A stretch of DNA of 64,000 nt from Spirogloea muscicola. Lineage: Eukaryota; Streptophyta; Zygnematophyceae; Spirogloeales; Spirogloeaceae. The position numbers were made by a program, and so were the translations under genes. Location of the stretch: assembly GCA_009602725.1 (NCBI GenBank), contig WELB01000025.1, positions 477,530 to 541,529 of the forward strand, in the 5' to 3' direction. Below the pieces are notes generated by a model that saw only the letters and a list, made by a program, of their open reading frames with translations, searched no databases and had not been told where the DNA came from. Shown here piece after piece: positions 2,286 to 52,420 of this stretch (positions are counted from its first letter, which is position 1; the number at the start of each line of letters is the position of its first letter).

Positions 2286-2610
2286 GAAGTGCGCGCCCAT
2301 AGAAAAGAGGGGCTGGCAAAGCCAGCCCAAGAAAGGATGGACAATGTCCAAAGCCAAAGAAAGAGGAGCCGGAAGAAGGACTACACTACAAAACACTGCA
2401 GAACACAGAGACGATGCAGAGGGAAGCTCAGTACCCACGAGTGAGCAACATCAGGTCTGAGTAGCTCGCTGCAGGGAAAGAGGCACTCCGCCGAGACCCA
2501 GAGGCGGCGGCCATAGCACGGCCTGCTCGCGTGTGGACGGCGTGGGCAAGAGAGCGTTAAAGCGATACGGCCAGGCGCATGCGGAAGACTTGTGCGAGCG
2601 AACCGGCGGC
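2286..2610 (-). mobile_element. Retroelement 3' end: decayed ORF C-terminus plus hairpin tail
   Basis: On the minus strand a frame reads a peptide of the form 'VFRMRLAVSL', then a stop, then 'AHAVHTRAGRAMAAASG' and ends 'SDLMLLTRGY' with a TGA at 2428-2430. The same C-terminus recurs at 12.2, 49.6, 50.8 and 52.2 kb. Downstream of the stop (toward 2290) lies a roughly 100-nt tail ending in a stem-loop, GGGCTGGC-TTT-GCCAGCCCC when read on the minus strand. The tail matches 12,660-12,790 (plus) closely. The internal stop shows this copy is dead. Assignment to a LINE-like element rests on the larger fragments elsewhere in the window. Confidence 0.6.
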
Positions 2611-2759
2611 GTTGAAGCCGGGCATCGCCCTGTGAAGGACTGGCCCACTGCTTGGGCAGTGGACGCTTTTCTGGAAGAGCTGCTCCCACTCTCCCCCTTC
2701 TGCTGCTCAACCGTAGGTACTACCGTCATACTGTTACCTTAGCTTTTCACAGACCTCGC

Positions 2760-3480
2760 CCCCTTTGGATGAGCTAACATTTTTCGGGCTGGCCTTCACA
2801 GCAGAAGAAGGTGAAGAAGGACGCTTCCAGAAAGGACGCAGCTTTTCACAGTACTCCCCCACTTCAGCCCTCGCTCCCTTCTGATGAGCTTACTTTGTCA
2901 TCTTTTCGGGCTATCGGGCTTTTTCTTTTCCTTTTCTTTCGTTTCGGGCTGGCTGTTCACAGCCCTTAGCCCCCTTTGGAAGAAGCCACAATCTACAGGA
3001 CCGGTCTTACTTAGCCATCGCCCTCTAATCTGGCCGCGCTTGCTTCCTCTAATGGAGAAGTCTTGTTTCTTGAAGACAAGCACAAAATATAGAAAGGAAG
3101 CACAAAAAAAGGAGAAGAGGTATATTGCAGGAGAAGAGCTCTTGCAAATGAAGAGAAGGATGGGGCGATGACTGTGAATGAATAGACAAGGTCCGATAAG
3201 TGCAACACGCAGCTATGGCTACCATGAAAGGTTGCTCAACGACCCCAGCACCAGCCGCAAGTGGGATGAAGAGCCGAAGTCAAACAGCTCTATCATGGTA
3301 AGGCGATAGCAGAAAGAGAAGCCCAAAAGGAATGGCCAAAAAGCAGTGGCCAGGCTTGTGCCATAAACCATTTGCAAGTACAAGTGGCTACAAGAGGAAG
3401 AGCGGAGTAGAGTAGAGGCAGAGATTCTTGCTTGAAGTATCTAAGCGGGCCGATTTCATTCCAATGACGCAATGAGGTAG
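2760..3480 (+). repeat. Cluster of hairpin-tail repeat fragments
   Basis: Contains at least two plus-strand copies of the GGGCTGG...TTCACAGC(CC) stem-loop near 2786 and 2945, each followed by CCCT(T)-rich sequence and 'GGAAGA(A/G)', the arrangement seen in the other repeat clusters. No coding region is supported. Confidence 0.5.
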
Positions 3481-4890
3481 TGAAGGACGCTTCTCACTTG
3501 ATGGCGGGCAGTGAAAGCAAGGTGGTGCGTGTCAGACTTACAAACACTTACCAATCTTCAGAAAACAATCTTCCGTAAGTATCATCAGCTCTTCTACTCT
3601 GTGAAACGGAAGACCTTTCTTGTGTCTCATTATCACAAATCAGCTGCCAGATGGAACGAGCGGTTAGACAGAAGTCAATCCGCTCCTCAGAGAGGGCGGC
3701 GGCAGAATGGTTGGCCGAGAGAGGTGCCAGCCCGAAAAGGGAATCCGATGCACATACTCATTCCGACCTGCGGATGTTACTTGGGGTTCCTGAATAGCTG
3801 TTTGCATAAGCTACTTCCTGTGCCTGGTGCGATGTGCTTCATGTGCTTCCCCCAGAATTTCTTCATCCTGTTTGTGCTGGCCGTGCGCAGTGCCACTCTC
3901 TCTGGGATAGATGTTCTGCCAAAGAAATGCGGCTGGGCGAGCAGCCAGCAGGCGGGGCTTGTCAATTGAAGAGCACTTTCTCAATGGAGGTGGTGCCAGA
4001 GCAAGTGGGAGAAGGGAGGCAAAAGCGTGTAGTGAGCAATGGAGGGCCAATACGGCCAAGTCCAAAAAGCACACCTGAAGAATAAAATATACCTGCTGCT
4101 ATGCATTCAACCCCTTTGTCACCAAATAGAGCTCCCCCACCTGTCTGGTGTGGAAAGCATGAGCCTGAGCTCGCTGCAGGCAATGTCCAGCCTCCTTGCG
4201 AAAGCCGCACTCACGTTGTTGGACCTGATCAAACACATGGGGAAGACCCAAAATGACTTGAGCCTCCGAGGCCTTGGGGCTAATTTTGAGAGCATAGGAT
4301 ATGAGCGTGCGTAGATGTCAATACGGCAGTAGCTGATTTTGTGTGTAGATCCTTCTTGTGGGTCTGAAGATCCAACTACGCCATGATAGCCGGCGTCAAT
4401 TGTTCCGGAGCATCCATATAAGCTATGCTATGCCGCTGCACGGCTGGACCTCCGCTTCGAAGCCTGATGGCACAGCCATGGCAAAGCTCCTCGCACTCAA
4501 CAGCGCGCCCCTGGCTGTAGCATGACTGCAAAAGTGAACAAACGATCCTACTGAGAAAGAGGCAGAGCGGGGGGACCCATTCCTGGAGTGGCGATGGAGG
4601 TAAGATCCACTAGGTTCTACGGGGACCCTCGCCCTCCAGCATCTTTCACAATGTCCTGCATTGTCGTCTTCTCCTGCTGCCGCAAGCCTGGCCTGTGCCC
4701 CCGCTCGAGCAAGAAGGAGAAAGGGATGAGGAGGGGTTGTAGAGAGAGAGTATGCAGCGATCTCTCGAGTTGCGTGTGCTGATGGCGTAAAAAGCAAGTG
4801 ACTATTCGCTAAGACGGCAGCAAGGGGCGCTCAATAACCTCTAGTCAGGAGATGCAAGTCGGAGCTAGCAAGCTAGCAAGTAAGACTTTT
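3481..4890 (-). repeat. Repeat-derived region with a retroelement ORF fragment
   Basis: No gene recognised. The part at about 4,130-4,300 resembles 22,560-22,680: both carry 'AAGCCGCACTCAC', then a TNATCAA(A/G)CA block, then a GGCCT(T/C)GG(G/A)GCT block in the same order. At 22.5 kb this sequence encodes (minus strand) the Cys-containing part of the retroelement ORF, so 4.1-4.3 kb is probably an older copy. The rest of the interval has only short, unremarkable frames. Confidence 0.35.
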
Positions 4891-5506
4891 CCAGCTCGAC
4901 ATTTCCAGCGAATGGAGTATGCTTTGAGTGACGGAGGGCCTGAGTGGCCAAGTACCATGGCAAGCACAGTGACAGATGTACATCACCTGCTGCTAAGCTG
5001 ACCCGCTCAGTAACCACGAGTCAGCAGTAGAGGTCACTAACTGATGCCCGAATACCGGACGAAATTGCCAAGCCCTTGTGCCACCAGCTAAAGCTCGTCC
5101 AGCTTTCTGGTGCAAAGGGGCGAAGGGCTGGGTAAAGCGAGCCCACAAAAGGGTGAAGAACAAGGTTGAAACTAGCCGGATAGAAATGAAGTATACAGAC
5201 TCTTCCTGGGGCGATGGCTGTGATTGGCCAGCCCAAAAAGAAAAAGAATGAACACAGAAGAAACGACCCAAGAAAGCGCGGCCAAGTCAAGTGGTGGCTA
5301 GGAGAGGCCAGCCCAAAGAAATGGAGCCAAGAACGACCGGACATGGCCAGCGGGTTGGGTGCTTGCCGGCGTCAGCTGCAAGTTTCCACGGGAGGGGAGG
5401 GGAGGGAGAAGCAAGCGCGGCCAGATCGTCTGGTGGCTGGGAGAGGCCAGCCCAAAGGAATGGACAAGGTCTGAAAGAGCCAGAGTGCTAAGGACAGGAG
5501 GGAGCG
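4890..5506 (-). mobile_element. Retroelement 3' fragment and hairpin modules
   Basis: 4,910-5,120 matches 33,180-33,420 (opposite strand) and 21,905-22,030: all three contain the CCGCTCAGTAACCACG(A/G)GTCA block, i.e. the element's stop region read from the other strand, followed by a conserved 'AGCTTTCTGGTGCAAAG' sequence. 5,215-5,500 holds three copies of the GGCTG(G)...GGCCAGCCC hairpin. The last (about 5,405-5,506) is a diverged copy of the 87-bp module found at 13,092, 44,607 and 45,102. The cluster ends about 90 bp before the RFC1 reading frame. Confidence 0.6.
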
Positions 5507-5594
5507 CTCGTTTGGACGGCGCAACGGCGGCGCTCCCGCCCGTCGTCCCGTCGGCGACTCGTCGCCCGCGCTCCCGCCCTAGCTGCAAATTCGG

Positions 5595-8500
5595 ATGGGG
5601 GGGCCCCTCCCCACCCAAGGAGCTCCTGCGGCGACGCCGGGCCGACGTCCGCCGTCGGGAGGGCCGAGCTCGCCCCGGCGCGAGCTCCGCCGAGGCGAGC
5701 GCCGCCTCCCGCGCCGCCCGACGCNGCTCCAGCTCGTCTCGCCCTTCTTCGCGCAGCAGCGGCGGCGGCGAGAGGCTGGCGATGCTGACGGCGGCGGCGG
5801 CGGCGTCGGCGGCTGCGGAGGCAAGCGCAAGCCTGCCGTGCCACAGGGTACCGCCGTTGACGGCGAGGACATTGACGACGACGACGCCTTCCATGACAAC
5901 GCGGTGAGCCGCCGGGAGCAGGTGCAGCGGGCGCAGCCACGGCAGGCCATCTGGCCATCTGCTGCCATGACGGCTGAGGGCAGTCTTGCAACCCAATTAG
6001 GTGCTCCCGCTAGTGCCACCTGGGTGCCACTCTCAGCATTGACATCAGGTCGACAGCCCAATGTCGCTATCGTCCTGAGAGCTGCATGTTGCTCTGCTTG
6101 CAGCAATCGCCGCCAAAGAAGCCGAGGCCCGGCGGGAGCCAGCTCGCAGTGCAGCCGACATTTGCCGTCAAGCAGGCGCTGCCCCTCCACAGCAGCCCGA
6201 CGCAGCCCCGGGCGCCAGCCCAGCTCGGCAGCGACAAGCGCTCGCCGGTCCTGCAGGCACCCACTCCGCCCACCAGGGACGCGCCTCGCCGGCTGGATCT
6301 CAAAGCCACGGGGATTGCCACGCTGCAGCCGCCGCCGGCGGCAACCAAAGAGAAGCTCGTCGCAACTTCCGCACAGCCAGGAAGGCCAGTGCTCGCTCCT
6401 GTAGCAGCCCCTGCGTTCAACGCCGAGGAGCCCGCAACTCAGCTGCTGGGCTCGAAGCTGGAGGAACCCAGTGAATCTGCACCAGTACCCCTTCAGGACG
6501 CACAGGTCAAAGGGGCTGCACCACCGGGCAGGGATCCAGACGTGCAGCAGTGCAGCAAAAGTGGCAATGTCTCACATGAAACGCCGAAGTGGACGGAGCC
6601 TTCGTCGTCATGGACACCTAATGGTTGTACCATCACCAAGCCATCATCTAATTCCTGCGGCAAGCAACCCGCACGTGGCCCGCCGTCTCCTGTTCCGCAA
6701 GCAGAACTGTGGACAGCCAAGCACCGCCCGCATGTAGTTGCAGACCTTATCGGCAACTCCTCACAGGTGTGATCTTGTCATCCTTTGTAATCGTTAACCA
6801 CTGTTGTTAGGGTTCCTCGCTGTGCACATTGCAAAGCAAGGCTGCCTCTTGTCAATTGGAGCGACTACAGATTATGTAGTCCATCAGGGTAATTCAGCGG
6901 ACAAGCGTGTGCGACGCTCCTATACTTGGGCTGTGATTTCCACCTCTTTGCAGATCCAACGCCTTCGGCAATGGCTGCTAGATTGGGACAAGCACCATGG
7001 CCATGGCAGTCACAAGCAGAACTGTCAGAAGGGTGCTGGCAGAGGAGGTGTAGGCAGGAGCAAGGCCGGTGACAATGACAAGAAGGCTGTGCTCCTGTAT
7101 GGCTCTCCGGGCCTAGGCAAGACCAGCGCGGCAATTCTTGTGTGCCGAGAGCTTGGCTACAGCTGCATAGAGGTTCACATCCTGCTTCACTCGACCTCCC
7201 TCCATCTAATGGGCACTGCGCGCCTTCTCCTCCTGAACTTGGTGCTTGCAACCATATCGTCTGCTTGCAGCAACAACGTGATGTCCTGCTACGTGGCATT
7301 GGCTTCAACCACCTTGTTGCCACCAACTAGTCGTTGTGCCGAAAGTAAAATCTATTCTGCCCTAGAAGCATTTTCACAACGTCACCATGACCTCAGAACA
7401 CTCTGGCCTGCAGGTCAATGCTAGCGACTCTCGAGGAAAGGCCGACAGAGATATCAAACAGGGTGTGAACGGGAAAGGAGTCAACACCTTTAAGGAGCTG
7501 ATCTCCAACCAGACAATTAGTTTTGCCAAGGCGGGTCAGTCTTTGGGTCTAAGCTTGATGTGGGCAACCTTTGCTCGACTCCAGGAGCTGGAGCACACCT
7601 GCAAGCGTAGTTATTGTGCTTTATACGAGAAGAGACCGGTGCTGATATGCAGACACCTTGACCAACGACGATATTGTATTGCAGGGCGACAGAAGGTCGC
7701 TCTCATCATGGATGAGGTGGACGGGATGTCAGGAGGTGATAAGGGCGGTGTGCAGGAGCTCATACAGTCTATCCAGACCACCAAGATACCTATCATCTGC
7801 ATCTGCAATGATAAGTACAGCCCAAAAGTCAAGTCCCTTGTCAACTCCTGCTTGGAACTTAGCTTCCAGAAGCCTATCAAAGGGCAGGTGAGCATACGAG
7901 AGTGTTGCAGTGCTGACACAATATCTCGTCGATGTAATGCAGCCATGATGCATAGTGCGGAAAGGTTGACAACTGCTTAGTCTTTGTAGTATCTCACTGT
8001 CTGACTGTGTCTGGGCTTGCTGCTTCCCTCCCATTCAGGTCATGCAGAGGCTGCTGCAGATTGTGAGAAAAGAGGGCGTTCAGACGGACGAGGTCGGCCT
8101 GGTTACGCACAATTGTCACTGACACAGCCCTAGATGCCGCGTTTCACAGTTGGTGCAGAATAGTCGTTGGGCAATGCAAGGCAGTGACAGACAGTGCCAT
8201 GACATGACCAACCTCCACTCTGCAATTACTGTACATCACAACATGATCATGTTTTGCATGTTGCAGGGGGCTTTGGATGTCCTTTTGGAGAATGTGCAAG
8301 GCGACATCAGACTTGCTATCAATCACTTGCAGGTAAGTGTGGCAGACGTTCAGAGTTTCTCGCCTCTGGTAGTATACCTTAGTCTGCGGGTTTTCAATGT
8401 TGCTTGCAATTCTCCTGACCTTCACCCTGCTAGTTCCTGCACAAGAAGTGGATAGAGCTGCACAGAAATGCATGTTCATGATGCAAGTGTTAGACGTGGT

Positions 8501-11640: not shown

Positions 11641-12470
11641 CTACGTGCTCCCACAAAAGGGCGATGGCTGTGCAAGAAGCAGCTCATCCGAAGGGGGCGA
11701 GGGCTGGGAACAGCCAGCTCACAAACGAATGAACAAGGGCTGTGAAGTAAGCTCTTCCAGAGGAGGCGAGGGCTGTGACACTGAGAAAGCAGCTCTTCCA
11801 ATCCACGGCAATGGCTTTGAAAAGTAAAGAGAAAAGCGCGCTGCCAAAATTGACAGCAGTGGCTTTGAGGGGCCAGCCCAAGGGAAAGGACGAGGTCTGG
11901 ACGGGCCGGATGGTGCAAAAAGCATGACACTGACTCCGGCCGGTGTATCGGGGTGGGCGTCCGTGCGGGTTGCGGTCAGCCTGATTGGTCAGCCTGACTT
12001 CAACGCAGCAGGCTCTCGAGCTGCAGCCTCTGGGCTGGCCTCTCACAGCCATTGCCGTAAGTTGGAAGAGCTTTACTCTCGCTCAGGTGTATTGCATGCG
12101 CATGTCAGTCTCGCTGCAGCGGTCATTGGCAGGCGCGTTGCATCTGCGTGCGGTCGCGCATTGGCTGCAGCCTCCGGCCTCCGGTCGGGGGACCTGCTAC
12201 ATGGAGACTAGTTCCTCTGACCTGCGGCTGCTCAACAGGGGTTACTGAGTGCCTCGTGGCCACTTGATTCACTGTGTGCTTCACAGGGAATCAAGTCTCA
12301 GTGCGTTCTCTGGCCCCTCCGAAGTTTCGTAAATCTATTTCTGGGCTGGCTCTCACAGCCATCGCCCTCTACTGGAAGCGTCTTTCTCCCGATTGGTCAG
12401 GAAAAAGTAGCTCTTTGTCAAGTAGTTCCTCTGACCTGCCGTTGCTTAATCCTGAGCACCCAGTGACGAC
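11641..12470 (+). mobile_element. Hairpin modules and a plus-strand retroelement ORF end
   Basis: Starts with three G-rich hairpin modules in reverse orientation (11,660-11,810). A plus-strand ORF remnant at about 12,035-12,247 reads 'VYCMRMSVSLQRSLAGALH' and ends 'SSDLRLLNRGY' before TGA (12,245-12,247), clearly the same C-terminus as at 49.6 and 50.8 kb. Hairpin modules GGGCTGGC(C)TCTCACAGCCAT at about 12,037 and 12,343 are in the plus orientation. This is a patchwork of short copies, not one intact element. Confidence 0.6.
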
Positions 12471-12519: not shown

Positions 12520-13360
12520 CATACTGCTGGCCGATCACAGCCACCGCCCTCACTGGAAGAAAGTTCCTTCGAAGGGTTTCATCCGAAGGGCATTCATTTC
12601 GAAAAGCGGCTGCAAGACACATTTCCCTGCAGCGAGCTACTCAGACTTGATGTTGCTCACTCGCGGGTACTGAGCTTCCCACTGCATCGTCTTGTGTTTG
12701 TAGTGTAGTCATTTTCCGGCTCCTCTTTCTTTGGCTTTGGACATTGTCCATTCTTTTTGGGCTGGCTTTGCCAGCCCCTCTTTCTATGGGCGAGCACTTT
12801 CTTCTTTCTAGACATAAGAAGCAAGGCCAGCCAAAATGAAACAGCCCAAACAGAAAGAACATGCCCAAAAGGAACGCAAACGAGAAAAGAATGTACATGA
12901 GAGACTCTTCCAGTAGAGAAGGGCTCGCCCATTGAGGATAGGGGCTGGGAACAGCCAGAGAAAGCGCGGCCAAAATGACTGGAAGAAAAGAAGAGGCACT
13001 CCCCATGGGGGCAAGGGCTGTGAAAAGCCAGCCCGAAAAAGAGTTGACAAAGGTTCGAAGGGGCCAAAATGATGGAGGGGCCCTAAAAGGGTCCTTAGCA
13101 CTCCGACTCCTTCAGACCTTGTCCATTCTTTTGGGCTGGCCTCTCCCAGCCACCAGTTAATCTGGCCGCGCTTGCTCTCAAAAAGCAGCTACCGAGGGGC
13201 CTGAAGATGCTATGTCAGAACAGAAGAAAAGAAGAAGTGGCTCTCCCAATGGGGGCAAGGGCTGTGAGAAGCCAGCCCGAGAAGAAAAGGGATGTAAAAA
13301 TTACGAGGGCGACGGCTGTGATTGGCCAGCCCAGCAAAGAATATTCAACAAGGATTGCGG
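12520..13360 (+). mobile_element. Retroelement 3' terminus with tail, hairpin array and an 87-bp module
   Basis: 12,600-12,670 carries the end of the ORF ('LTRGY'-type codons, ACTCGCGGGTACTGA) and 12,670-12,790 the tail that closes with GGGCTGGCTTTGCCAGCCCC; this matches 2,286-2,440 in reverse. 12,930-13,360 holds further hairpins in both orientations. 13,092-13,178 is an 87-bp module identical base for base to the reverse complement of 45,102-45,188 and one base different from 44,607-44,693, indicating recent spread. Confidence 0.65.
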
Positions 13361-13514: not shown

Positions 13515-13539
13515 AAAGCTCTCACCTCACGAGCTCACT

Positions 13540-21348: not shown

Positions 21349-21900
21349 TACTTCGACTACATACGAGAGTCAGCTCAAGAAAGACGAGTCTGCCTGCTCA
21401 AGACAGCCATTTGCCGACCCCAACCATATCTTGCAAACAAGAGTCTCTATTCTGAAGTGAGCCAGCTTGGAATTGACACTGACGAGCGCGGTAAGTGAGC
21501 CTCCTGCTGGTCGGTGGTTTGCTGGCGCCCGCTCCTCAGTTGTCTTCAAGGCCAGCTGGCGTCGCTGGCCCAGGCAGGCTGGCTTGCTCGAGCGAGGGCT
21601 CCCTCAAAGCCGATTTCCGCTGCCGCAGCCCCGGCAGACTCCGCGCAGACTGGACGCAGGACCGCCCCGTGCCGGCGCTGGCGGCGCGCGTGGAGGCCGG
21701 CAGGCAGGCAGGCCAGCGTCTGGGGGGCCAGGAGCAGTTGGGGAATGTCGGACAGGAAAGAAGACTCGAAGAAGTGAGATCTTCCGAAGAAAAAAGTGCT
21801 TGACCCGAGAGAAGGAAGGATTCCGTGTATTTGAAACAAACGAAGGCCAAATGGGCAAGTACAAAGGCAAGCACATCTTGAGACCTACCTAACCTACAGA
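21349..21900. other. Intergenic, GC-rich patch, no gene supported
   Basis: The otubain 5' flank passes into a GC-rich patch (21,490-21,730) with overlapping frames on both strands and no recognisable motif. AT-richer repeat-like sequence follows. Confidence 0.3.
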
Positions 21901-21902
21901 AG

Positions 21903-22700
21903 TTGACCCGCTCAGTAACCACGGGTCAAAACCGAAAGGTCGCTAATCGATGCCTGAATACTAGATGGCAGATACGAAGCCCTTCTGCCACCAACTAGAG
22001 CTCGCCCAGCTTTCTGGTGCAAAGCATTAGCCTGAGCAAGCTGCAGATAGGCCGAAAGTCGTCGTCGCAAGAACGACAAATATGCAGCTGGCAAGCCCAC
22101 CTCAGCCGGGAACACATCTGCATGTCGTGTGTAGCATAGATTGGCTATTTATAAAAGGAGAGTAAGGAAACGAGAACCTAAGCAGCCAAAGATGTCGACT
22201 GCCGCTGGCAGGAGCTGATCACATAGGGGGTAAACGTAGTAAATCTGCAGCTTCCTTTGTTCAGCACTGCCCACTGCGTGGCCAGCGTGTCGATGCTGGA
22301 CCTTTACAGGCCTCCGTACTCACAACATCGACCAAGGCCCGTCGACCTCCACCAGGTTGCACGCCCACAATGTCAAGTGTGCGGCGATGATGACGTCCCT
22401 GGGCATTCGCGGTGATAGGCATGATATTGTGCACTTCCACGACCACACGGTACCCGGCGTCGCGCATCAAACCCGCCAGGGCATCACGGAGGAGGTTGTG
22501 CATGCCCACAACTTCTGGTCCAGTGGGGCGTCGCAGCATGTGAGTGGCGAGCTCAGCACCCTCTGCACGGAAGCCGCACTCACACTGGCGCACCCTAATC
22601 AAGCAGTTAGGTGGGAGGCCGAGGAAGAGTTGAAGCAACGTCCGAAAGGCCTCGGAGCTGATGCTGAAGGCGTTGGCTACAGCCAACGCCTTCAGCATTG
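21903..22700 (-). mobile_element. Retroelement ORF C-terminal fragment (Cys motif plus nuclease-like region)
   Basis: The minus frame 22698-22261 (145 codons) reads 'RVRQCECGFRAEGAELATH', then 'HNLLRDALAGLMRDAGY' and 'RRTLDIVGVQPGGGRRALV-DVV'. A Cys/His segment, an 'HN-lRDaLa' segment and an 'r-tLDiv...alvDVv' segment in this order are typical of the region downstream of the reverse transcriptase in some non-LTR elements, where a PD-(D/E)XK-like nuclease fold is suspected; no reverse transcriptase is seen here. The frame breaks at 22,261. 21,903-22,030 matches the stop region of the copies at 4.9 and 33.2 kb. 22,661-22,698 forms a near-perfect hairpin (18-bp arms, 2-base loop) at the frame's first codons. 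Confidence 0.55.
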
Positions 22701-22899: not shown

Positions 22900-23930
22900 G
22901 GGGTTGTATAGAGGAAAAAGAGCCGATTGCCGAGCAAGCCAGCCCAAAAAAGAACAATGTCCATAACCAAAGAAAAAGGTGCCGAAAGAGGACTACACTA
23001 CAAAACACGAGATGAGGTTCCGAAGGGAAAGTGGCTCTCCCGAAGTGGGCGGGGGCTCTAAAAAGCCAGCCCGAAGAGTATAGAGAGAAGGCGCGCGGAG
23101 CGCCGAAATAGGAAGAGGGGAGCAGTTGTCAAGTGTGCGGCGCCGCTCAAGGGGCCGAGCGGCGGCAGGAATAGCCAACCACTGGTAGGTGCTGACAACG
23201 CTACCCGTGCGCTTGCAAGGAAAGAGAGGCCAATCCGAGACTTGACAAAGTCCTGGAAGAGAGAAAGAAGGAATGAGTGTGTACTGAGAAGCCTCGTCCC
23301 CTTTAGAAGAGCTGATTCACATCGACTTCCAAAGTAAGTCGATGGCTGTGAGAGGCCAGCCCAAAAGGAATGAATTAGGTCCGACATGGCCGGAAGGTGC
23401 AATCATACGAAACTACTCTCAGTGAAGGTCGCAGTGTCGAAGACGGGAGGCGGCAGCCAACGCGCACTAGTTTGGGCAACACATTTTAGCGAAGCCCTGG
23501 AGGAGCTAAGGAAGCAGGTGGAAGAAAGATAGAAACAACTGGTCCAATGTAATGGAAAGCACGCCTGGAAGGGGCGTTTCAGTATCCACGAGTGAGCGCA
23601 TCACCTTAAGAAAACGGAAATAGCGCGCGTGCATGTCGGACAGGCTGACTTGGGGAGCAGAGCGGAAGCACCGCGGAAGCCGGTGCGCCAGCATGCTGAA
23701 GGAAGAAATTGCCAGCCCATAGAAAATAGGGGCAGGGAAAGGCCAGCCCAAAAGGAATGGACAAGACCCAAAGACCCAAAAGGTGCTGATAACAAAACCC
23801 AAACTGCTGGACACGAGACGACGCAGATGGAAGCTTTAGTACCGACGAGTGAGCAGCAGCAAGTCCGAGTAACTCGCAGGAGGGCCTGGGCATGCGAGCG
23901 CTACAGGCTCAGCAAGAACCGCAGTTTGTA
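22900..23930 (-). repeat. Retroelement tails and hairpin modules
   Basis: 22,905-23,010 and 23,690-23,860 repeat the element's 3' tail in reverse (AGCCCA(A)AA(A/G)GAA...GGACAA...CCAAAG...). The second runs into ACGAGTGAGCAGCAGC, the reverse of the ORF end. Hairpin modules lie at about 23,050 and 23,343. The 23,400-23,600 part shows nothing recognisable. 23,915-24,010 contains a direct repeat of GCAGTTTGTAGCACGCAACT / ACAGTTTGTAACACGCAACT, about 50 bases apart. Confidence 0.5.

Positions 23931-30739: not shown

Positions 30740-30833
<94 letters not shown>
30739..30833 (+). repeat. (CT)n microsatellite, about 95 bp
   Basis: Pure CT dinucleotide run preceded by an ambiguous base at 30,739, between the divergent E2 and GYPP genes. 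The length is probably not reliable in the assembly. Confidence 0.9.
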
Positions 30834-32519: not shown

Positions 32520-33425
32520 CAGGCTGGCATTCACAGCCATTGCCTTGCTGCATTTAAGAAGGGGTTCACTGGGAGTCGCCGACACTGGGAGAAATTTCTC
32601 CGCAATTGAAGACATCGTCTTGCTAATCTCAACATGTAGCCAACGTTTGCATATGGGGAAGCCAATTCGGGACTGTCTTGTAACAGAGTCCCACCGGCCA
32701 GGTACAAGAACAGCAACTTCATAGCAGTGAAGCACCACTTCTGCCCTTGCTCAACAGAGGCCAAAGGCGTCCATCAAGGCAGCCGCTTGCCTTCCAGGTC
32801 TGCAGTCCTCCTGGCTGGCCCTTGCTGCTTGTCCAACTCTCAGTCCTGTCAATTGTGGTGATGTGTTGAACGAACAAATTGGTCTGAGGATCCAATCTAT
32901 CAATGCGGTAACATGGTTGATCAGTCATTCGGCTGGGGGCCATCCTGTCAAATGTGATAGTGTGATGAACCAGCGCATAGGCTGGGAATCATCCGACTCA
33001 GGCTACTGGGCCATCGGAGCCCTTCCTGTGAGAAGGGGTTCCCTGGCACATTGGACTTGTTCGGATCTCAGGCAACCGCGCTGCTCCGGTGCACCCTACC
33101 TATGGCTGCAACCCTAACCAGATGAGCATGCCGGCAGCCACTTGTCATTGTGCGATGGTGTGTGTCAGCCTGCTTGCAGCGAGCTCAGGCTCACGCTTTG
33201 CGAAAGAAAGCTGGTCGAGCCTGAGCTGGTGGCACAAGAGCTTGTCAATGGCTGTCCGGGTTTCGGGCATCGACTAGCAACCTCTATGTGCTGACCCGTG
33301 GTTACTGAACGGGTCAGCTCAGCAGCAGGTGATGTACACCTGCCAATGTGCTAGCCTTTGTACTTGGCCACACAGGCCCTCCATCGCTCAATGCATACTC
33401 CAGTTCTCCTACCTGCAACCCCACC
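32520..33425 (+). mobile_element. Retroelement fragments between the tandem GYPP genes
   Basis: Begins with a hairpin module (AGGCTGGCATTCACAGCCATTGCC at 32,520) followed by GGGGTTC. 33,170-33,420 carries, in the plus orientation, the block ending CTGACCCGTGGTTACTGAACGG (the element's 'LTRGY'-type stop region) and the downstream sequence shared with 4,910-5,030. Upstream (33,190-33,280) is the 'AAAGAAAGCTGG' and 'GAGCTGGTGGCAC' block shared with 5,080-5,110 and 21,985-22,020. Confidence 0.55.
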
Positions 33426-43300: not shown

Positions 43301-43417
43301 GTCACATGACGACGTCGGGGTGACTGCCCGACGCGCGCAACAACAGTGACGGGCACGGCGGCGGGCCTGCAGCCAAGCGCGCCAGCGCGAGAGCCCGCCA
43401 GCGGGCAGGCGGGAGAG

Positions 43418-43739: not shown

Positions 43740-44600
43740 TGGGCTGGCCTCTCACAGCCTGTCATTGCCTCACATTGGAAGAGCTATTTCTGCCACTAGT
43801 CCTTCCTGTCTGAACCTTCGAAATCCGTGCATTCTGTTTCTGGGCAGGCCAATCACAGCCGTCGCGCTCCACTGGATAGAGTCTCGGGGCTTCTGACAGG
43901 CGCACGACAGGCGAGGTGGTCCTGTCCCCGGCGAGGCGCCGACGTCGGCGGGGCGGTTGGGGTGGGGCGGCGCGGGAAGCGGGGGCCCGGCACTGTTCCC
44001 CGGAGGAGGGCACAGCCGCCAGACGGGCGGCGGCGGCGGGGTGGCGCCACGGGCACACGTTGGCGCGCCGCCGGCTGGAAAAAGTGGCCCGCCGCCGCCG
44101 TCGCCGCGTCCCGCGCGAGCGACGGCGCGCGGTGCGCGGACGCCCTCAGAGTGAGTGGCTCTCCCAGAGGGGGGCGCGGGCTGTGAACAGGCTCAGCCCG
44201 ACGAGTCTGACAAGGTGTGAAGGGGCCGGAGAAGCGCTGAAAGACATGACTACGCAAGTACCATGAGGGATAATCGAGGAGAGAAGGCGCACGTTGCCCT
44301 GAGAAGAACATGCTTCCAGTAGAAAGAAGAGGAATTGCTCGCCCATACAACGAGAGGGGCTAGCAAAGCCAGCCCAGAAAAGAATGGACAACATCCAAAG
44401 GCCGCAAAATGGTGCCGAAAACGAACCACACAATTGGACTCGAAATGATGCAGATTGAAGCTCCGTATCCACGGGTGAGCAACAGCAAATCAGAATAACT
44501 CCAGTAGAGGGCAGTGGCTGTCACTGGCCTGCTTTCCGCCTGCTAGCTAGTCAGATTTGCATCTACTGTCTAGAGGTTACTGAGAGTCCGCTTGCTGCTG
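43740..44600. repeat. Hairpin modules and retroelement tail fragments flanking a GC-rich block
   Basis: Plus-oriented modules occur at 43,741 (GGGCTGGCCTCTCACAGCC, then TTGGAAGAGC) and 43,843. A GC-rich unassigned block runs 43,905-44,150. A reversed module is at 44,166. 44,340-44,480 is a reversed 3' tail that runs into CACGGGTGAGCAACAGC, the reverse of the ORF end at 2.4 and 12.6 kb. Confidence 0.55.
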
Positions 44601-44606
44601 TCTCAG

Positions 44607-45188
44607 TCCTTAGCACTCCGGCTCCTTCAGACCTTGTCCATTCTTTTGGGCTGGCCTCTCCCAGCCACCAGTTAATCTGGCCGCGCTTGCTCTCTGGCCT
44701 GCCCAGGAGAAAGAAGTGGCTCTCCCTATGTGGGCAAGGGGCTGTGAAAAGCCAGCCCGAAAAGCATTGACAAAATTTTCGAAGGGGCCAAATGACGGAG
44801 GGGCCTAAAGCGCTATGGAGAAAGAGAATGAACGATCTTCCCTGAGAGGGAGGCCCAAGCAAAACAAGGCTCTGAAAGTGGCTCTGCCAAAGGGAACGAG
44901 GGCTGTGAAAGCCAGCCCGAGATCAGTTGACAAGGTCTCGAGGGGCCGAAAGTGCTCTTCCAAACTTCAAAGAAGGCCAGGCAAGCCAGCACACTCTCTC
45001 TGCAAGAAGAATCGAAGAGAAGAAGGACGCTTCAAGGAGAGGGCGGTGGGCGTGAGAGGCGCAGCCCAGAACAAAGAATGAACATCTCAGGGGGGCTAAG
45101 AAGAGCAAGCGCGGCCAGATTAACTGGTGGCTGGGAGAGGCCAGCCCAAAAGAATGGACAAGGTCTGAAGGAGTCGGAGTGCTAAGGA
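44607..45188. mobile_element. 582-bp unit bounded by 87-bp inverted repeats
   Basis: 44,607-44,693 and 45,102-45,188 are inverted copies of an 87-bp module differing at one base. Each contains the palindrome GGGCTGGCCTCTCCCAGCC. The inside has three more hairpin modules (about 44,735, 44,895 and 45,045). No open frame codes a recognisable protein and no clear target-site duplication is seen, so it may be a MITE-like unit or two independent insertions. Confidence 0.6.
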
Positions 45189-45295
45189 GACGATAAGCGG
45201 CTCCTCCAAGAGAGAGAGAGAGGGCGAGGGCTGGCCTCTCCCAGCCACCAGTTTATGTGGCCGCGCTTGCTCTTTTTCGAGGGGGTGAGGGCTGT

Positions 45296-45420: not shown

Positions 45421-45644
45421 CCACTCCTCCCCCCCTCTTAGCATCCCCTCCTCCCCGCCGTCTCCCGAGCAAGCCCACTCCACTCCACTCCCCACCCACC
45501 TCCACGACGAGAGCTCCTCCCCACGGCCAGCCCCTCTGTCCGCGCCGCCTCCATTGCTCCTTGCGAGCCCCTCGTCCTTCCTGCAGCCCGCCGGGTGTTT
45601 GCTGGGCGCCGGCACAGCGCCAAAGCCGGCTCGCCCCGGCTGCC

Positions 45645-47355
45645 ATGGCCAAGAGGCAGGCGCCCGGGGAGAAGAGCTTGCAGGCCAAGAGGGCCCGCAC
45701 GGATGCCTGCGCGCCGGAGCCCGGCTTCGACAGCCTGCCGGTGAGCATGCCGACCCTCGGTGCCACATTCTGATCTCCTCGCGCACGGGGGCCCATGTGG
45801 GTTCATCCAGACTGCAAAAGGCAAGGGATGCAGGCGCCTCGTGTAGCGGCCTCATACAGGGTCCAGCAGGCCCATGCACGCGATGGCGAACTTCATAGCG
45901 GCTCAGTGGGCGCACGGACATCTGGCGTTTGCGCAATATAGAGTTGCCTCCTGCGCCCTCTGTTGCATCGCTTGCCATCTCCTCGACGCTCACGTCCTTC
46001 TGTTTGCTGTTGCTCAGGACGACCTGGCGATGCTGGTGCTCTCCTCCTTGGCCCGCCGCGCGTCGCTGCCCTGCCACCTAGCCAATGCCAGCCTCGTGGG
46101 CCGCCGCTTCCGGCAGTTGGCGGCCGCCGAGCAGGTCTTGGCACAGGTCTCTGCACCCGCGCTGGCTGTCCCGGCCACGCGGTGGCCAGATGCTGAGGCC
46201 TTTGTGAAGAGGTGTGCGGCCGCCGGCAACCTGGAGGCACGCTACTTGCTCGGAATGGCGGCCTTCTACCTGCCCTCGCCAGACGGCATTGAGGCCGCTG
46301 AGCAGCGGCGGGAGGGCGTCGCGCTGCTGGTGACTGCTGCCAAGGCTGGCCACGCGCCGGCGCTGCACTCACTATCCATCATTCACTTTAATGGCTCCGG
46401 CGGCCAGGCCAGCGACCGGAATCTGGCAGTGGGCGTGCTCCTGTGCGCCGGCGCTGCTAGGCGGGGCCACCCTGAGGCACTTCGGGAGCTCGGCCACTGC
46501 CTCCAGGACGGCTATGGCATCCGGCGCAACGTCCTGGAAGGCCGACGGCTGCTGCTCGAGGCCAATCTGCGGGAGGCGGCGCTTGAGTCGGCAGAGGCTG
46601 CGGAGGTGGCTGGTGATGCCCAAGGGTCGCAGCAGGAATCGCTGGCAACGACAGCCATCCGCCGTCTCCAAGAGGTCCTGCGGGCTGCCAAGAAGGCCCG
46701 GGCTGCTCAGCACGAGGCTCTGGACCCCGCCATCAGCACCACAGCTTCGCCAGTGCCTTCATTGCCCTTTCTGGGCGCCGCAGCACCGCTCCAGACGCAG
46801 GAGGGTCGCGACGTCCCTGCCACGGAGCATGGAGTGGCAGCCAAGCTGTCAGACAAGGAGGCCGCCCACGAGGCCACGGTGGCAGCAGAGGCAGACGATG
46901 GGGCCCAGCCGATGCCGCACGCCGACATGTCCTGGCACGTGCGCCAGCTCTGCGAGACGCTCGGGCCGCTGATGAGCGACTTTGGCTGCACGCTCCCGAG
47001 AGGGGCCCCGCACCCTGCCAACCGCCTGCTCTGTGACCACTTTGTGGCGCACCCGCTGTCCGGCGGCCTCAAGCTGTGCTCCAACACGCGGTGCGGGCGG
47101 CCAGAGACGCGGTGCCACGAGTTTCGGTGCTGCGCCGTCTGCTCGGCGCCCAGCTACTGCAGCCGCGCCTGCCAGGCGCTAGACTGGAAGGCTGGCCACG
47201 CATCTACCTGCTCCGAAATTCTGGGCCAGCAACGACAGCGGGAAGCTGAGGAGCATGACGCGCTCGTGCAGCGCCTCCTGCAGGCGCAGCAGCTGCAGCA
47301 GCAGCAGCAGCAGCAGCAGGAAGCAGAACTAGCTGCAATTGGCTCTGGGCTTTGA
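45645..47355 (+). CDS. F-box-like / Sel1-repeat / MYND zinc-finger protein
   Basis: Homologue of the plant proteins typified by Arabidopsis At1g67340 and At5g50450. Exons 45645-45740 and 46018-47355 join in phase 0 to 477 residues. The N-terminus 'MAKRQAPGEKSLQAKRART' looks like a basic nuclear signal. Residues about 33-80 form an F-box-like region ('DLAMLVLSSLARRASLP', 'NASLVGRRFRQLAAAEQVL'). About 100-210 are Sel1/TPR-like helices ('GNLEARYLLGMAAFYLP', 'GHAPALHSLSIIHFNGSGG', 'GHPEALRELGHCLQDGYGI'). A linker follows. The MYND finger is near 395-435 ('CSNTRCGRPETRCHEFRCC', 'CSAPSYCSRACQALDWKAG', 'HASTC'). A (CAG)n-coded run of glutamines (DNA about 47,290-47,320) precedes the stop. A role as an SCF adaptor is inference; the MYND finger suggests protein binding. 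Confidence 0.92.
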
Positions 47356-49000
47356 CCCACTGAGGGTGGAGCAGCAACCTCGATAGTGACCTGCACAAGC
47401 CTCACCAATAAGCATCCGTAATTGCGGATTTTTTCACTGGACAACTTAGCCATGCAGCCAGATACTTTGATGTAGCCTGCATCAGTCAGCATACGGCTTA
47501 AGCAGCTCTGGTCTGATATGCTGCCTGATGCAGACTACGCCTCTGCATACGTAGGACTTGTACTTGCCTCTGTGGCTCTGTAATTTCAGCGCCTCAATAG
47601 ACATGTGCATAATTTTGCCTGGGTCCCAACGTGACCCGGGCCCCTCTTCCAAAGGTCGCTGGCTGCCTGGTCCAGGACATACGACAGACATTGCCATGCT
47701 GCAATGAATAACTTCAGAAGCAGATGACCACTGCAGCTCGACACAGTCATCTCGGAAGAAGGTCCAAATCTCGCAGTCATTGTCAGCTGTGCTTGCTTTT
47801 TTTTGAAAGTGGTCATGCAGATCAAAGATTAAAGCAGCATTGTATCGCTTAGTGCATAATGTTCAGAACCTTGAAAGGAGTTGTCAGCAAAGTACCAAGC
47901 CATAGCCCAGCATTCTGCTGGTCGGTGCCACGTGCATGAGCCGTTGCAAGCACTTGCTCAGCTCCATGCTTGGACTGAGCTTCTATCTCAAATGGTCCGC
48001 TCGGATTGCGCAACAGGCAAAGTCCAATGTAGGGGCCACGTCCTGTTCAGTGTAGAATCCCACAGGTATGCATCTAAATCTCATACAGCCAGGGTGCACG
48101 ACCAAGCAGGGGTCACTTCGGACATGCCAGCCTATGCAGAGCTGGATTGAAGCAGCATTGCTACATACTCCACAGATATGAGCCACTCCACCTTTGACTT
48201 TCAGCAATTTGCAGCCACTTGCACAAGCTTAGACGGCCTGAATTTGGGATCCTTGGAGCGCCACGTAGAGCATGCTTGCGCCCACGTCAACCTGCTTCTA
48301 AGGCCTTAGGCGGCCTGCGAGCATGTCTGCTTGTCACTTATCAAGGACTCGACTGAGCACCCGCCGCGTGTCTGACATGGCAGGCAAGCCCACGCAGCTA
48401 GTCCAGCTAACCACGCCATGGCATGTACATGTTGAAGAGGTATGACGGTGAATCTGCAAAATGGGAAGAGGGCATCTTGACCGACAGTTGAAGCGAGTGC
48501 CACATAATATGGCTTATTACAAAGGCGGGCCACACTGACCATCTGCAGAGTCATAGCTTGTGTGTCAGACCTTCCTAGCAAGTCCAGCCCAGTGCCTCAC
48601 ACCGCAAGTCCGTGTCACACACGGGCAATTTGCACTGCGATGGAGCACCCATACATGCGCAAACAACGGTCGTTCGATCCATGATTCAGCGGCAGGAGTC
48701 GCGTTTGTTGATTATGAAGATGGTGAGTAGAGCATCTTGATCAATAGCAGTTGGCCTTCGATTTGACTTGGCATCAGTGCCAAGGCACAGGAAGCCGTGG
48801 TACACACTCTCACTCGGAGCAAAAAAAGGGCTAAGAGCCTATGGCGATCTCTGCAGTAGGGGAGATCCCCCGTTTTATAAGGAGAGTGAAGCCACAAAGT
48901 GAGGATGCATGAAGGAGCGCAACCCGAGAACAGGACCCAAAACAAGCAGCGATAGCTAGCCTCTTAACGCAGAGTTACGAAGATAATCCTCCGCTAGGAG
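47356..49000. other. Intergenic, no gene seen
   Basis: About 1.6 kb with only short frames on both strands and no recognisable RNA gene or repeat. Confidence 0.45.
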
Positions 49001-49600
49001 AGTGGCGGTCATTCCGCCAGCCCAGAGGAATTTATGAAAGGTGGGGCGAGCAGGTGGGGGCGGCTCCTAAATGCAGAAGGGGAGAATGTTCTCCATTGCC
49101 TTAGAAGCAGTCGATGATCAAAAGAGCTTGAAGAGCAAGGAATTTGTGATTTACGTACCTCCGGGGCCCAAGCTTAAGTGGGCTGGTCCGCTCATCTTCC
49201 CTATTCCAGACTCCACAGCTGCTACAGCTCCTTGGACCTTGTGGACCTTTGCTTTGTGGGCTGGCTTTACACAGCCCTCAGCCCCGTTACAATTGCTGTT
49301 TCTTATGCTACTACGAGTGGGTGCTTATCAACCCCAGCAGCCGCAACTTAGAGTAGCTTGCAGCCGGAAGAGTGTCACCAAAGCGAACCCAGAAGCAGCA
49401 GCACGGCCTGCCCGCAAGTCCAAAAGAAGAAGTAAAATAAGCAGCTCTTCCAAAGGGGGCGAGGGCTGAGAAAAGGGCTCGCCCATTGAGGATAGGGCTG
49501 GAAAAAGCCAGCCCAGAAAAGAATGAACAAAGGACGAGAAGGGGCCAGGGGAAGTACGAAAACAACAAGCACAGAAAAGAAACGAAGCAGCTACGAAGCA
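49001..49600. repeat. Hairpin-module repeat cluster
   Basis: A plus module at 49,258 (GGGCTGGCTTTACACAGCCC) and reversed modules at about 49,455 (GGGGGCGAGGGCTGAGAAAAG) and 49,497, with tail-like AGCCCAGAAAAGAATGAACAA sequence, lead into the reversed element copy that follows. Confidence 0.55.
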
Positions 49601-49601
49601 C

Positions 49602-49970
49602 TCAGTAACCCCTGCTAAGCAGCCTCAGGTCAGAGAGACTGGGTTCCTGGAAGCGGGTCCCCTGGCCAGAGCCAGAGGCAGCAGCGAGGGCTCTGCCTGC
49701 ACGCAGGTGCAGCGCGCGGGCCATAGAACTCTGCAGCGAGACGGCCAAGCGCATGCGGTACACCTGCGCTAGCGACCCTGCTCCATGGGAGTCCATGGGC
49801 TCCCCATGGAAGCGGCGGGCAATGGCGTGACGAGAGAGCTGGTTGAGCAGCTCGAGCCACCGAGCGCCCAGCGCCCCGTGCGTATCGATGGCGAGCGGGA
49901 AGAACTCGTCTTCCCGCGGGTGATCTGCGTTTTGAAAAGCCAGCCCACAAATTGAACCAATAAGTGCCAA
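49602..49970 (-). mobile_element. Retroelement ORF C-terminus, best-preserved minus copy
   Basis: Open frame of 122 codons: 'FFPLAIDTHGALGARWLEL', 'VYRMRLAVSLQSSMARALH', 'LRAGRALAAASGSGQGTRF', ending 'SLSDLRLLSRGY' and TGA. The '(F/Y)-PLA-D-HG-(A/C)-GARW' segment and the Arg/Leu-rich helix resemble the extreme C-terminus of some LINE-like polyproteins. No catalytic domain is included, so this is a 5'-truncated copy, as left by incomplete reverse transcription. Confidence 0.6.
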
Positions 49971-50301
49971 TGGAGCCGGTCAGGAGCCGGATAACGTAGA
50001 GACCAGTAAGGGGCCCTGCTCAGTGACCCCTAGGCAGCAGCCTTAAGTTGAAAAATGTAGCAGCAGGAAAGGAAACAGCTTCTTCACAATTAAGTGATGG
50101 CTGTGAGAGGCCAACCCAAAAGGCAAAACCAAGCAGGATAGGAGTCGCCCCGCCTAGAGCCTGAGGCAGCCAGGCACGACCACCACGACGAATGCAAGGC
50201 TTATCTCAGAGAACGTTGCAGGAACCTGGGAAGCGGCACCAGGGCTGAAATCCATACACCAGAGCCGGAGAGCCCGTGGTACTGAGATCGGCCTGCTCCC
50301 C

Positions 50302-50775
50302 TTGGTGCCGTCGGGGCACGCCTGGGAGGTGGCAAGCGGCTCCTCAGGGACGTCGTCCTCACCGACAGCTTCCGGAGGAAGGGCCCCGTATCTTCTGAGA
50401 CCGGCTATGAAGGTGGCCAAACAGAAGACGTTGCACAAGGACAAGGACCACCCGGCGGGTGATACCGTATACCCCCTGGCCATGGACATCCACGGGTGTT
50501 ACGGGGGTCGTTGGTCCTCGTTCCTCTCGCTGCTGGCATCTCAAGCTGACCAGCGGCGCCGGGAACAGGGTGCAGCACTTCCTGGAGGCTCGGTGCCTTT
50601 GGGTCTTGTGTCCTACTACCGCATGCGAGTGTCCATGTCCCTCCAGCGCTCCCAAGCGCTTGCTTTGCACCACCGCGCCGGTCGCGCCCTTGCAGCAGCC
50701 TCTGGCTTGCGCAGCTGGGTTGCTCTTCCTCCCCTCAGCTCATCTGACTTCCTACTGCTGACCCGGGGGTACTAA
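50302..50775 (+). mobile_element. Retroelement ORF C-terminus, plus copy
   Basis: Open frame of 157 codons whose second half reads 'VYPLAMDIHGCYGGRWSSF', 'YYRMRVSMSLQRSQALALH', 'HRAGRALAAASGLRSWVAL' and ends 'SSDFLLLTRGY' with TAA at 50,773-50,775. Homologous along its length to 49,970-49,602 but clearly diverged, so the two are separate insertions in opposite orientation rather than a recent inversion. Hairpin modules follow downstream at 50,828 and 50,958. Confidence 0.6.
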
Positions 50776-51850
50776 GAGCGCCCTGTCTGCCAAGCCTGTG
50801 GCTCCGTCGAGAACACCTTTATGCATCTGGCTGGCTTTCACAGCCGCTCTTTCACTATCAGCAGCCGCATTGCCTTTCTTTTTTACATTTGGGCTCCCCG
50901 TATGTCCTCCCCGGGATTGACGTCCACGGGTGGGGCTCGGTGGTCAGAACTCTTGCGCTGGGCTGGCCTTTAGTAGCCCTCATCCTTGTGAGAAGAGCTG
51001 CTTATAGTTGCCAACCAGATCGACACGCCTCGTCCGAGGGACCTGTTGCGGAGTTGGACGGGCATCACCCCGCTGCTCTCCAACGCCACAAAGATGTAAG
51101 AGGAACAGTCCTCCCAATATGGAGACCAGTAAGCTCTTAATAAGGGGCGAGGGCTGTGAGAGGCCAGCCCGAGAAGATGGCTGGAAAGCGCTGATACTAC
51201 ACAAGCAAGCAAGTACAACGAGGGGTGGTCACCACTTGTTCTTCCCTGATAAGCAGCCGCAAGAAAGAGTTCTTAGTAAGCTCGTCCAAACGGGGACGAG
51301 GGCTGGGAAAAGCCCGCCCGGAAAAAGTAGCAGCTGAAAGAGGGAGAAAGAGTGGCTCTCCTAAGGGGCGCAAGGGCTGTGAGAAGCCAGCCCGAAAAGA
51401 GTTGACAAAGGTTCGAAGGGGCCAAATGACGGAGGATAGAAAAGAGGGAGGCCAAGCCAAGCGAGAGGGGGCGCGGGCTGTGATAAGCAAGCCCGACTCC
51501 CTGTCTACAGCCAGAGGCTGCGGCTGGCACGCAGATGCAACGCGTGTGCCACAGACCGCGGCAGCGAAAGATATGCTAAAGGGGGCGAGGGCTGTGAGAA
51601 GCTAGCCCGAAAAGGCCAGCCGCCGGAAAGGGTAGGCAAAGGGAAGCCAGTACGCTGTTGTTTCCTTCTGCGATACGTAGGAGAAGGTGGAGGCAGCGAG
51701 GGCGGACGGGCGAGAGAAGGGCTCGCCCATAGAGGGTAGGCGGCTGGAAAAGGCCAGCCCAAAAAAGAATGAACAAAGTGCGAGAAGGGGCCAGGGGAAG
51801 CACTAAGAAAAACAAGCACAGAAAGACACTAAGCAGCTACGAAACTCTCA
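50776..51850. repeat. Dense hairpin-module array
   Basis: At least eight modules in about 1 kb: plus orientation at 50,828 and 50,958, reversed near 51,150, 51,300, 51,370, 51,475, 51,590 and 51,745. The reversed ones share the layout (GCTCTYCN)AAGGGGGCGAGGGCTGTGAGAAGCCAGCCCGAAAA. 51,700-51,850 resembles 49,480-49,620, so tail and module order is itself repeated. Confidence 0.6.
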
Positions 51851-52420
51851 GTCCCTGCTAAGCAGCCTCAAGTAAACTTGGCTCCTGGAAGCGGGTCCCT
51901 TGGCCAGGGCTAGAGGCAGCAGCGAGGGCTCGTCCGGCAGCAGCGAGGGCTCGTCCGGCACGCAGGTGCAGCGCGCGGGCCAAGGACCTCTGCAGCGAGA
52001 CAAGGCGTGCAGCGCATGAAATTAAAAGGGAGGCCAATTCTAGCCTTACACATGTCCTGTTTACGGGGTAATGAGCTGGCAGAGGGGAACACCAATATCC
52101 CCGAGTGAGCACATGCATGTCTGACAAGCTAAGCTGAGGAGCCAAACCACCACCATGGAAGCCATTAGCCTGGGCTGATGCACGCTGGTGTATCGCGAGT
52201 CCCTGCGAGCGCTGTAGACTCAAAGATAGCCGCATTCTATATAGCATGTAACGATGGCTTGCGGGTCGCTAGAATGCCCTAAGCTACCAGCCCGACTACG
52301 TCGGCGGGCATCGACATGCAGTGCCAAAGGTGCTCTGCAGGGAGACGGCTAAGCGCATGCGGTACACCTGCGCTAGCGACCCGGCTCCCACGCCCACGAG
52401 CTAGGCCGACCCGGGCAGGC
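51851..52420 (-). mobile_element. Retroelement C-terminal fragments, minus strand
   Basis: Two overlapping remnants. 52,247-52,090 reads 'YRMRLSLSLQRSQGLAIHQ' and ends 'SLSDMHVLTRGY'; about 52,010-51,870 reads 'VSLQRSLARALHLRAGRAL' and has a short duplication of the GCAGCAGCGAGGGCTCGTCCG unit (51,917 and 51,939). A further piece at about 52,400-52,330 reads 'SRVASAGVPHALSRLPAEH', out of frame relative to the others. Confidence 0.5.

Follow-up and report, generated by a model that had tools for sequence, protein, structure and literature searches.

What are the short hairpin-forming repeats that lie along a 64,000-nt stretch of the Spirogloea muscicola genome (C25:477530-541529; hereafter the window), and why do some of them follow the ends of decayed open reading frames (ORFs)? 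A first-pass annotation, made from the letters alone, had seen in them the 3' stem-loop of one retroelement of the long interspersed nuclear element (LINE) kind, accompanied by loose stem-loops. We find a group of LINEs with a domain resembling the restriction-like endonuclease (RLE), composed of several subfamilies and marked by tails that form a hairpin, by extreme truncation from the 5' side and by nesting in the same orientation. With high confidence, the best explanation is that the tails are the 3' ends of diverse retrotransposons without long terminal repeats (LTRs), which encode a reverse transcriptase (RT), a CCHC knuckle and an RLE-like endonuclease, and that the loose modules are their 5'-truncated copies, the steps suggested below for target priming, a hairpin handle and nesting being part of that explanation.

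The genome comprises 153,112,186 bases in 471 contigs, of which we sampled 84 loci (L001-L084) beside the window. Twenty (L005-L024) were drawn by matches to RVT_1; the others (L001-L004 and L025-L084) were chosen for holding the LINE family, so that densities there do not equal genome averages. One locus, L025, is the window again, and L050/L055 and L056/L070 are overlapping pairs. For both target-duplication tests L025 was excluded and duplicates were merged, leaving 328 junctions, and for the test of adjacency between tails all three overlaps were removed, leaving 428 modules. The overlaps are still inside the totals of the eight-type profile search and of the 5'-truncation analysis (393 modules); only L025 was excluded from the broad same-strand spacing analysis and from the search for a body of the short interspersed nuclear element (SINE) kind (158 short copies).

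Stem-loops and ORF ends in the window

The stem-loop GGGCTGGC-nnn-GCCAGCCC, which defines tail type A, occurs exactly at 2310-2328 and 12759-12777. With up to three mismatches allowed there are seven matches, against 1.24 expected, and seven were reached in 0 of 100 shuffles; some of the five inexact ones (e.g. 30483, 43530) lie outside every module found. Eleven ORF ends of the form [TSN]RGY-stop were present and the reversed-sequence control had 0. Ten of them are of the family type (12248, 12673, 33308, 44583 and 50775 on the + strand; 2428, 4831, 5007, 21912 and 49602 on the - strand), and the eleventh (23579, -) is unlike the family. Profiles of eight tail types matched 58 places at E <=0.1, with 41 at >=20 bits and 31 at >=25 bits; five dinucleotide-shuffled versions of the window (5 x 64 kb) gave six matches, the highest at 12.0 bits. 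No match to these profiles was found in the 20 loci drawn by RVT_1 (about 70 kb), a weak control because L005 and L017, the two inspected, lie inside Gypsy-like elements. An Rfam search of the window gave no match at gathering score.

With 41 modules of at least 20 bits against a shuffle maximum of 12.0, the earlier observation of stem-loops and ORF ends is confirmed overall, and two of its details change. Six of the seven RGY-stop sites listed at first are among the ten family-type ends; at the seventh, at 52.1 kb, tblastn recovers a C-terminus (52244-52095, -) with no clean RGY-stop. Four sites had been said to carry the stem-loop after the stop: it is exact at 2.3 and 12.7 kb and has one mismatch at 44.4 kb, and at 23.7 kb the stem is imperfect. 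The copies and modules are listed below with window positions and strand.

2284..2697 (-): type A copy with ORF C-terminus (tblastn 2697-2431, 79% to L059), stop 2428, 3' untranslated region (UTR), stem-loop 2310-2328 and tail
2938..2989 (+): loose type C module, 35.0 bits
5198..5242 (-): loose type C module, 24.2 bits
5271..5325 (-): loose type E module, 43.1 bits
5409..5472 (-): loose type E module that reaches about 23 nt into the UTR ahead of the model start; possible 8-bp duplication, CTCCCTCC
11838..11898 (-): loose type E module, by profile
12006..12389 (+): type D copy with decayed ORF end (LNRGY, stop 12246-12248), UTR, stem-loop 12343-12360 and tail
12622..12804 (+): type A copy, 5'-truncated, with ORF end SDLMLLTRGY (stop 12671-12673), UTR, stem-loop 12759-12777 and tail
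12915..12958 (-): loose type B module, by profile
12988..13055 (-): loose type C module, by profile
13114..13178 (+): loose type E module that reaches about 23 nt into the UTR ahead of the model start
13230..13286 (-): loose type C module, by profile
21813..22698 (-): type G copy with knuckle and RLE remnant (22698-22285), second frame to stop 21912 and G-type tail
23703..23764 (-): type A-like tail with imperfect stem; RRY-stop at 23836
33147..33370 (+): type G copy with ORF end (stop 33308) and partial tail
44324..44499 (-): type A copy, complete insertion flanked by TCTACTGGA (+ strand 44315-44323, 44500-44508); the flanks resemble an older D-type tail; bounds by eye
44533..44693 (+): type E copy, complete insertion with ORF end (stop 44583), flanked by CTGGCCTGC (44524-44532, 44694-44702); bounds by eye
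44715..44816 (-): type C copy, complete insertion flanked by TCTTTCTCC (+ strand 44706-44714, 44817-44825); bounds by eye
44876..44936 (-): loose type C module, by profile
45102..45166 (-): loose type E module, by profile
45228..45274 (+): loose type E module, by profile
49468..49934 (-): type B copy with ORF C-terminus (stop 49602), UTR, stem-loop and tail
50437..50877 (+): type F copy with ORF C-terminus (stop 50775) and tail
51346..51413 (-): loose type C module, by profile
51713..51779 (-): loose type B module, by profile
51997..52244 (-): type H copy with decayed ORF end (tblastn 52244-52095) and tail

The search supporting the type A copy at 12622..12804 scored the best 40 of 2,799 first-look candidates.

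The ORF encodes a reverse transcriptase and an RLE-like domain

Thirty loci drawn with the window's tail have a common 3' terminus, made up of the hairpin, about 30 nt, CTTC-rich sequence and then unrelated flanks. The 3' layout of the element is an ORF ending in (T/S/N)RGY-stop, a 3'UTR of 50-120 nt, the stem-loop and a CTTC-rich end. An open frame of 695 amino acid residues (aa) in L059, incomplete at its N-terminus and ending in SDLMLLTRGY, matches RVT_1 with an E-value of 9.3e-10 (residues 26-172), and the stem-loop lies about 100 nt beyond its stop. With RVT_1 in the ORF, and with ORF-bearing copies that extend past the stem-loop and stop about 30 nt beyond it, not before it, the proposed LINE with a 3'-terminal stem-loop is borne out.

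Nine aligned open frames have a CxC-x12-H-x3-C knuckle downstream of the RT, followed by RLE-like residues, among which H494, E515, D536-x14-D551, K581-x2-K584-Y585 and W609 are invariant. The set of catalytic residues that follows the RT (a D, another D/E and KX2KY) fits the RLE pattern set out in the available part of PMC5678591. In the window the RLE sequence is a broken fragment only, and its diverged type G copy retains the first K and the Y. Searches of solved structures with the RLE region gave no matching chain by single sequence or by profile, and NCBIfam gave no match.

According to the same portion of PMC5678591, a CCHC knuckle occurs also in LINEs with an apurinic/apyrimidinic-like endonuclease (APE). 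An APE domain is not evident in the LINE group: PF14529 had 0 and PF03372 had 10 matches genome-wide, in searches whose sensitivity for LINE APE domains was uncontrolled and with the N-terminal half of the ORF lying outside the sequence read. One partial PF03372 match (Exo_endo_phos, APE-type; C20:466271-466636, +) lies 4.4 kb upstream of one RLE match and could be either a coincidence or the remnant of a relative resembling Dualen.

When the genome was searched for the RLE, 12 matches had the identical score of 374.1 bits, five of them with open frames of 1,393-1,433 aa (among the best 150 of 10,821 first-look candidates, which were scored). This shared score and the five long open frames indicate that some copies are probably young.

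Tail types and their abundance

The tails fall into at least eight related types (A-H), and most of the 58 window matches belong to types other than A (54/58): 25 are of type C, 12 of type E and only 4 of type A. The idea of one element was thus not borne out. The sequence sampled holds 171 distinct ORF ends, 96 of which could be assigned to the eight types by simple rules (A 60, B 10, C 7, D 1, E 5, F 3, G 5, H 5) and 75 of which fit no tail type. A 3' stem-loop, the feature by which stringent-type LINEs are recognized, is present in types A-F, which have a GGCTG/CAGCC core in common; in types G and H, different inverted repeats are found close to that position. A hairpin was found after 171/171 ORF ends, a count made uninformative by the low threshold of five pairs.

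Exact patterns of the tails matched the genome 1979 times for type A, 3840 times (1943 + 1897) for types C and D, 1765 times (890 + 875) for type E and 2526 times (1277 + 1249) for type B. Together the four patterns have about 10,100 matches genome-wide, and each reversed control has 0. Among the matches listed (the first 100 places per pattern), they are scattered along contigs C1-C5.

Loose modules are 5'-truncated copies

The first-pass annotation had left open whether the loose modules are passengers or truncated copies, and the evidence favours the latter. Nearly all modules of >=25 bits (391 of 393) match another ORF-bearing end, the remaining two being without an outside reference. Among the 368 with >=300 nt of upstream sequence, the points at which the match breaks off form a continuum, from the hairpin to >400 nt. 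In types C, E and H the 5' ends cluster no more than 10 nt from the model start; very early arrest is therefore common in these types. Loose modules do not have termini of their own; they end at the same 3' terminus as the ORF-bearing copies.

Target duplications, whose mapping had been proposed as a check, flank part of the copies. In a looser test, in which the 3' repeat could start inside the CTTC tail, repeats of >=9 bp were found at 30/328 junctions, against 0.0066 of permuted pairs; in a stricter test, in which it had to start at or after the model end, they were found at 17/328 junctions, against 0.0018 (0.18%). Repeats of >=8 bp (looser test) accompany copies of every length: 11/122 for those <100 nt, 15/104 for those of 100-200 nt and 13/102 for those >=200 nt. 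Three cases were identified by eye at 44.3-44.8 kb of the window (TCTACTGGA, CTGGCCTGC and TCTTTCTCC), the first inside an apparent older D-type tail.

A preference for CTTC targets was also considered and dropped, because in the looser search a match was free to begin within the CTTC tail itself. In the stricter test, repeats starting with CTT were no commoner than in controls at 6-8 bp; at 9 bp they were 5/17 against 8.8%, which is only suggestive.

The very short copies are numerous, and the pile-up of C, E and H starts within 10 nt of the model start is what one might see if the loose modules were SINEs with a 5' body of their own and a borrowed LINE tail, moved by the LINE protein. We consider such an origin very improbable. 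In the 120 nt upstream of 158 short copies (84 loci and the window) no body is common to them except LINE sequence or that of overlapping loci; the in-register sharing that exists is confined to seven groups of 2-5 members, all overlapping loci or LINE. The 5' ends are continuous, with no fixed 5' end, and ARAGORN found no tRNA gene in the window. Given continuous truncation, flanking duplications and no SINE body, the loose modules are 5'-truncated LINE copies and not SINE-like passengers.

Nesting on older tails

Truncated copies start next to the 3' ends of other tails more often than local density would predict. On the same strand, 27 starts lie <=10 nt from another tail's 3' end, against 10.2 (standard deviation 3.1, maximum 21) when modules were jittered by up to 150 nt in 1000 rounds, none of which reached the observed number (0/1000). 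For the opposite strand the corresponding count is 8 against 4.5 (99/1000). The same-strand excess argues that landing on existing tails, in the same orientation, exceeds what local density explains.

Head-to-head, near-palindromic pairs of the same tail subfamily were seen in L076 (about 1000-1400) and L084 (about 2270-2530). They look as if one copy had inserted in reverse beside another, or as if an inversion had taken place during insertion.

Tails nested in one another bear also on the suggestion that the hairpins are host elements, such as terminators or RNA-processing signals, which were captured by the LINE and whose loose copies serve the host. The hairpin is indeed the best-conserved part of the modules and there are thousands of copies; nesting, target duplications and continuous truncation are all expected of insertions, however, and the stem pairs decay without compensation, which makes a host function hardly credible.

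A broader reading, which we put forward tentatively and at well under even chances, is that an RLE-type LINE has moved past strict site specificity and favours its own or sister 3' termini, with tail-only copies piling up in oriented arrays across genic DNA. Each insertion would add a landing place, and very short tail-only copies would therefore accumulate in oriented arrays.

Strength of the interpretation

Several results weigh against the origin of the tails in RLE-bearing LINEs, or against individual steps of that explanation. The evidence consists of 3' portions of elements, and the sequence read holds no 5' end or complete element. In the available part of PMC5678591 the RLE pattern has a CX2-3CX7-8HX4C knuckle, a P ahead of the first D, GXW following the fourth strand, and KX2KY. 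Here the knuckle spacing is CX1CX12HX3C, the residue before the first D is A (V in one row), and GXW is replaced by GXXW (GSRW, GSGW or GRGW, and GARW in one window copy). Because of these three mismatches we term the putative endonuclease domain RLE-like and file it in no clade. Even in the looser test, 289/328 junctions have no duplication of >=8 bp, which we put down to decay and blurred ends. The same-strand excess reaches over the first 200 nt past tail ends, so that nesting at the terminus stands out as a peak from a wider excess.

Further results concern the hairpin, and of these the conservation of its arms counts in favour: in 121 divergent modules of types A-E, the eight columns of the 5' arm and the CAGCC of the 3' arm are >=90% conserved, against a mean column identity of 47%. 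To some degree this conservation is a product of the search, which used stem profiles. Compensatory changes in the stem had been proposed as a test, and they do not exceed shuffles. In the inner stem of the 121 modules 77.7% of cells are paired, against 78.0% when shuffled (434/500), and double changes are not in excess; nor was there any excess over shuffles for the inner stem and possible outer helix of 101 type A and B modules. RNAalifold returned no consensus structure and no pair for the modules. Single-sequence folds are not unusually stable in five of nine examples (z-scores: C -1.1, E -0.65, F +0.6, G -0.8 and one H +0.8); the other four are unusually stable (A -3.6 and B -3.0, both with the outer helix, D -2.2 and another H -2.4).

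The outer helix, a possible pairing of TTGTCCAT with ATGGGCGA, encloses the hairpin in types A and B (e.g. L031:1621-1689) and is not confirmed by covariation. Its cells are 84% paired, against 29-48% in slid controls, a figure that says little because the helix was taken from the reference row itself.

Both arms being conserved as sequence, without compensatory changes beyond shuffles, and the C, E, F and G examples not being unusually stable, the stem could be a palindromic motif or binding site instead of an RNA structure for the RT. This alternative, which concerns the handle step and not the LINE origin, is unlikely in our view and deserves some weight all the same. The type A and B folds (z -3.6 and -3.0) speak against it, as do the other inverted repeats that types G and H carry near the same place. 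Dead copies, moreover, are a poor place for covariation: they decay without selection, and the test is therefore weak either way.

In the preferred explanation, target-primed reverse transcription would start copying at the 3' terminus and would often halt within 60-500 nt, so that the tail alone remains. As no compensatory change beyond shuffles was seen, recognition of the hairpin by the enzyme is a step that we infer; by analogy with known LINE tails, the hairpin may act as an RNA handle bound by the LINE protein. Landing on existing tails would then build small head-to-tail arrays.

Other sequence in the window and loci

The ten best RVT_1 matches (L005-L014, e.g. on C33, C235 and C267) score equally or nearly so, and their open frames measure 1,172-1,237 aa. 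As L005 has the look of a Gypsy-like polyprotein, these are likely recently active LTR elements. The window also holds a perfect (TC)47 run (30740-30833) and, inside the contig, TTTAGGG-like repeats (1880-1915) that we take to resemble plant-type telomere repeats. Pieces of host genes are present: an AAA ATPase (6798-7421), plant TPR repeats (45847-47352), a RhoGAP (53770-54282) and a HAD-like hydrolase (57452-58147). The telomere-like repeats and the match to a plant TPR model are no more than hints of the green lineage.

Significance and relation to known systems

A literature search of limited coverage gave, among the matches listed, no paper on this hairpin-tailed LINE group. Of 101 candidate stretches in IMG/VR 0 were confirmed as relatives, and one exact tail pattern found none there. 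The way in which R2 and other RLE LINEs select their template and target is a current question, also because R2 proteins serve as tools for inserting transgenes. A lineage in which insertions number in the thousands, many just 60-100 nt in length, would provide a large natural data set on the shortest copied template, on tail recognition and on relaxed targeting. The truncated tails also account for a class of short, dispersed hairpin repeats which annotators might take for SINEs or regulatory sequences.

The eel element UnaL2 is a stringent-type LINE with a 3' stem-loop. In zebrafish ZfL2, a stringent-type LINE of the L2 clade, the 3'UTR ends in a stem-loop near the terminus and recognition was shown by assay, as stated in the accessible part of PMC4176376. 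As far as that partial text goes, the LINE tails described here are alike in having a stem-loop shortly before the terminus. They differ in that stringent-type LINEs belong to the L2 clade and have SINE partners, whereas here recognition is deduced and no SINE partner was found in the 84 loci and the window.

The RLE LINEs (R2, R4, NeSL, HERO, CRE) have the same RT, knuckle and endonuclease with its set of H, D/E, D-x14-D and KX2KY; the group described here differs from them in CX1CX12HX3C, GXXW and A or V before the first D. Most RLE LINEs are target-specific and HERO is largely non-specific, according to excerpts of PMC4640811; insertion sites here look diverse. Dualen (RandI) is an RLE-bearing LINE of green algae that encodes both APE and RLE, as given in portions of PMC8226300 and PMC4640811. 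The group described here has RLE-like motifs, and the only sign of APE beside a copy is the partial PF03372 match mentioned above.

Zepp has an APE endonuclease and a poly-A tail, whereas the tail here is CTTC-rich. Zepp of green algae belongs to the L1 group, and its nested insertion gives rise to tandem arrays composed mostly of 3' ends through 5' truncation (available part of PMC8226300); in Coccomyxa there is one Zepp cluster per chromosome. The matches found here are, among those listed, scattered and not in one cluster per chromosome. Nesting in existing copies and arrays of 5'-truncated 3' ends are the same in Zepp-like LINEs, to the extent that this partial source describes them. Within the tentative reading given above, subfamilies that keep a hairpin in one place with differing sequences might, with a likelihood that we again place below even, represent an RLE counterpart of the stringent-type tail combined with Zepp-like nesting.

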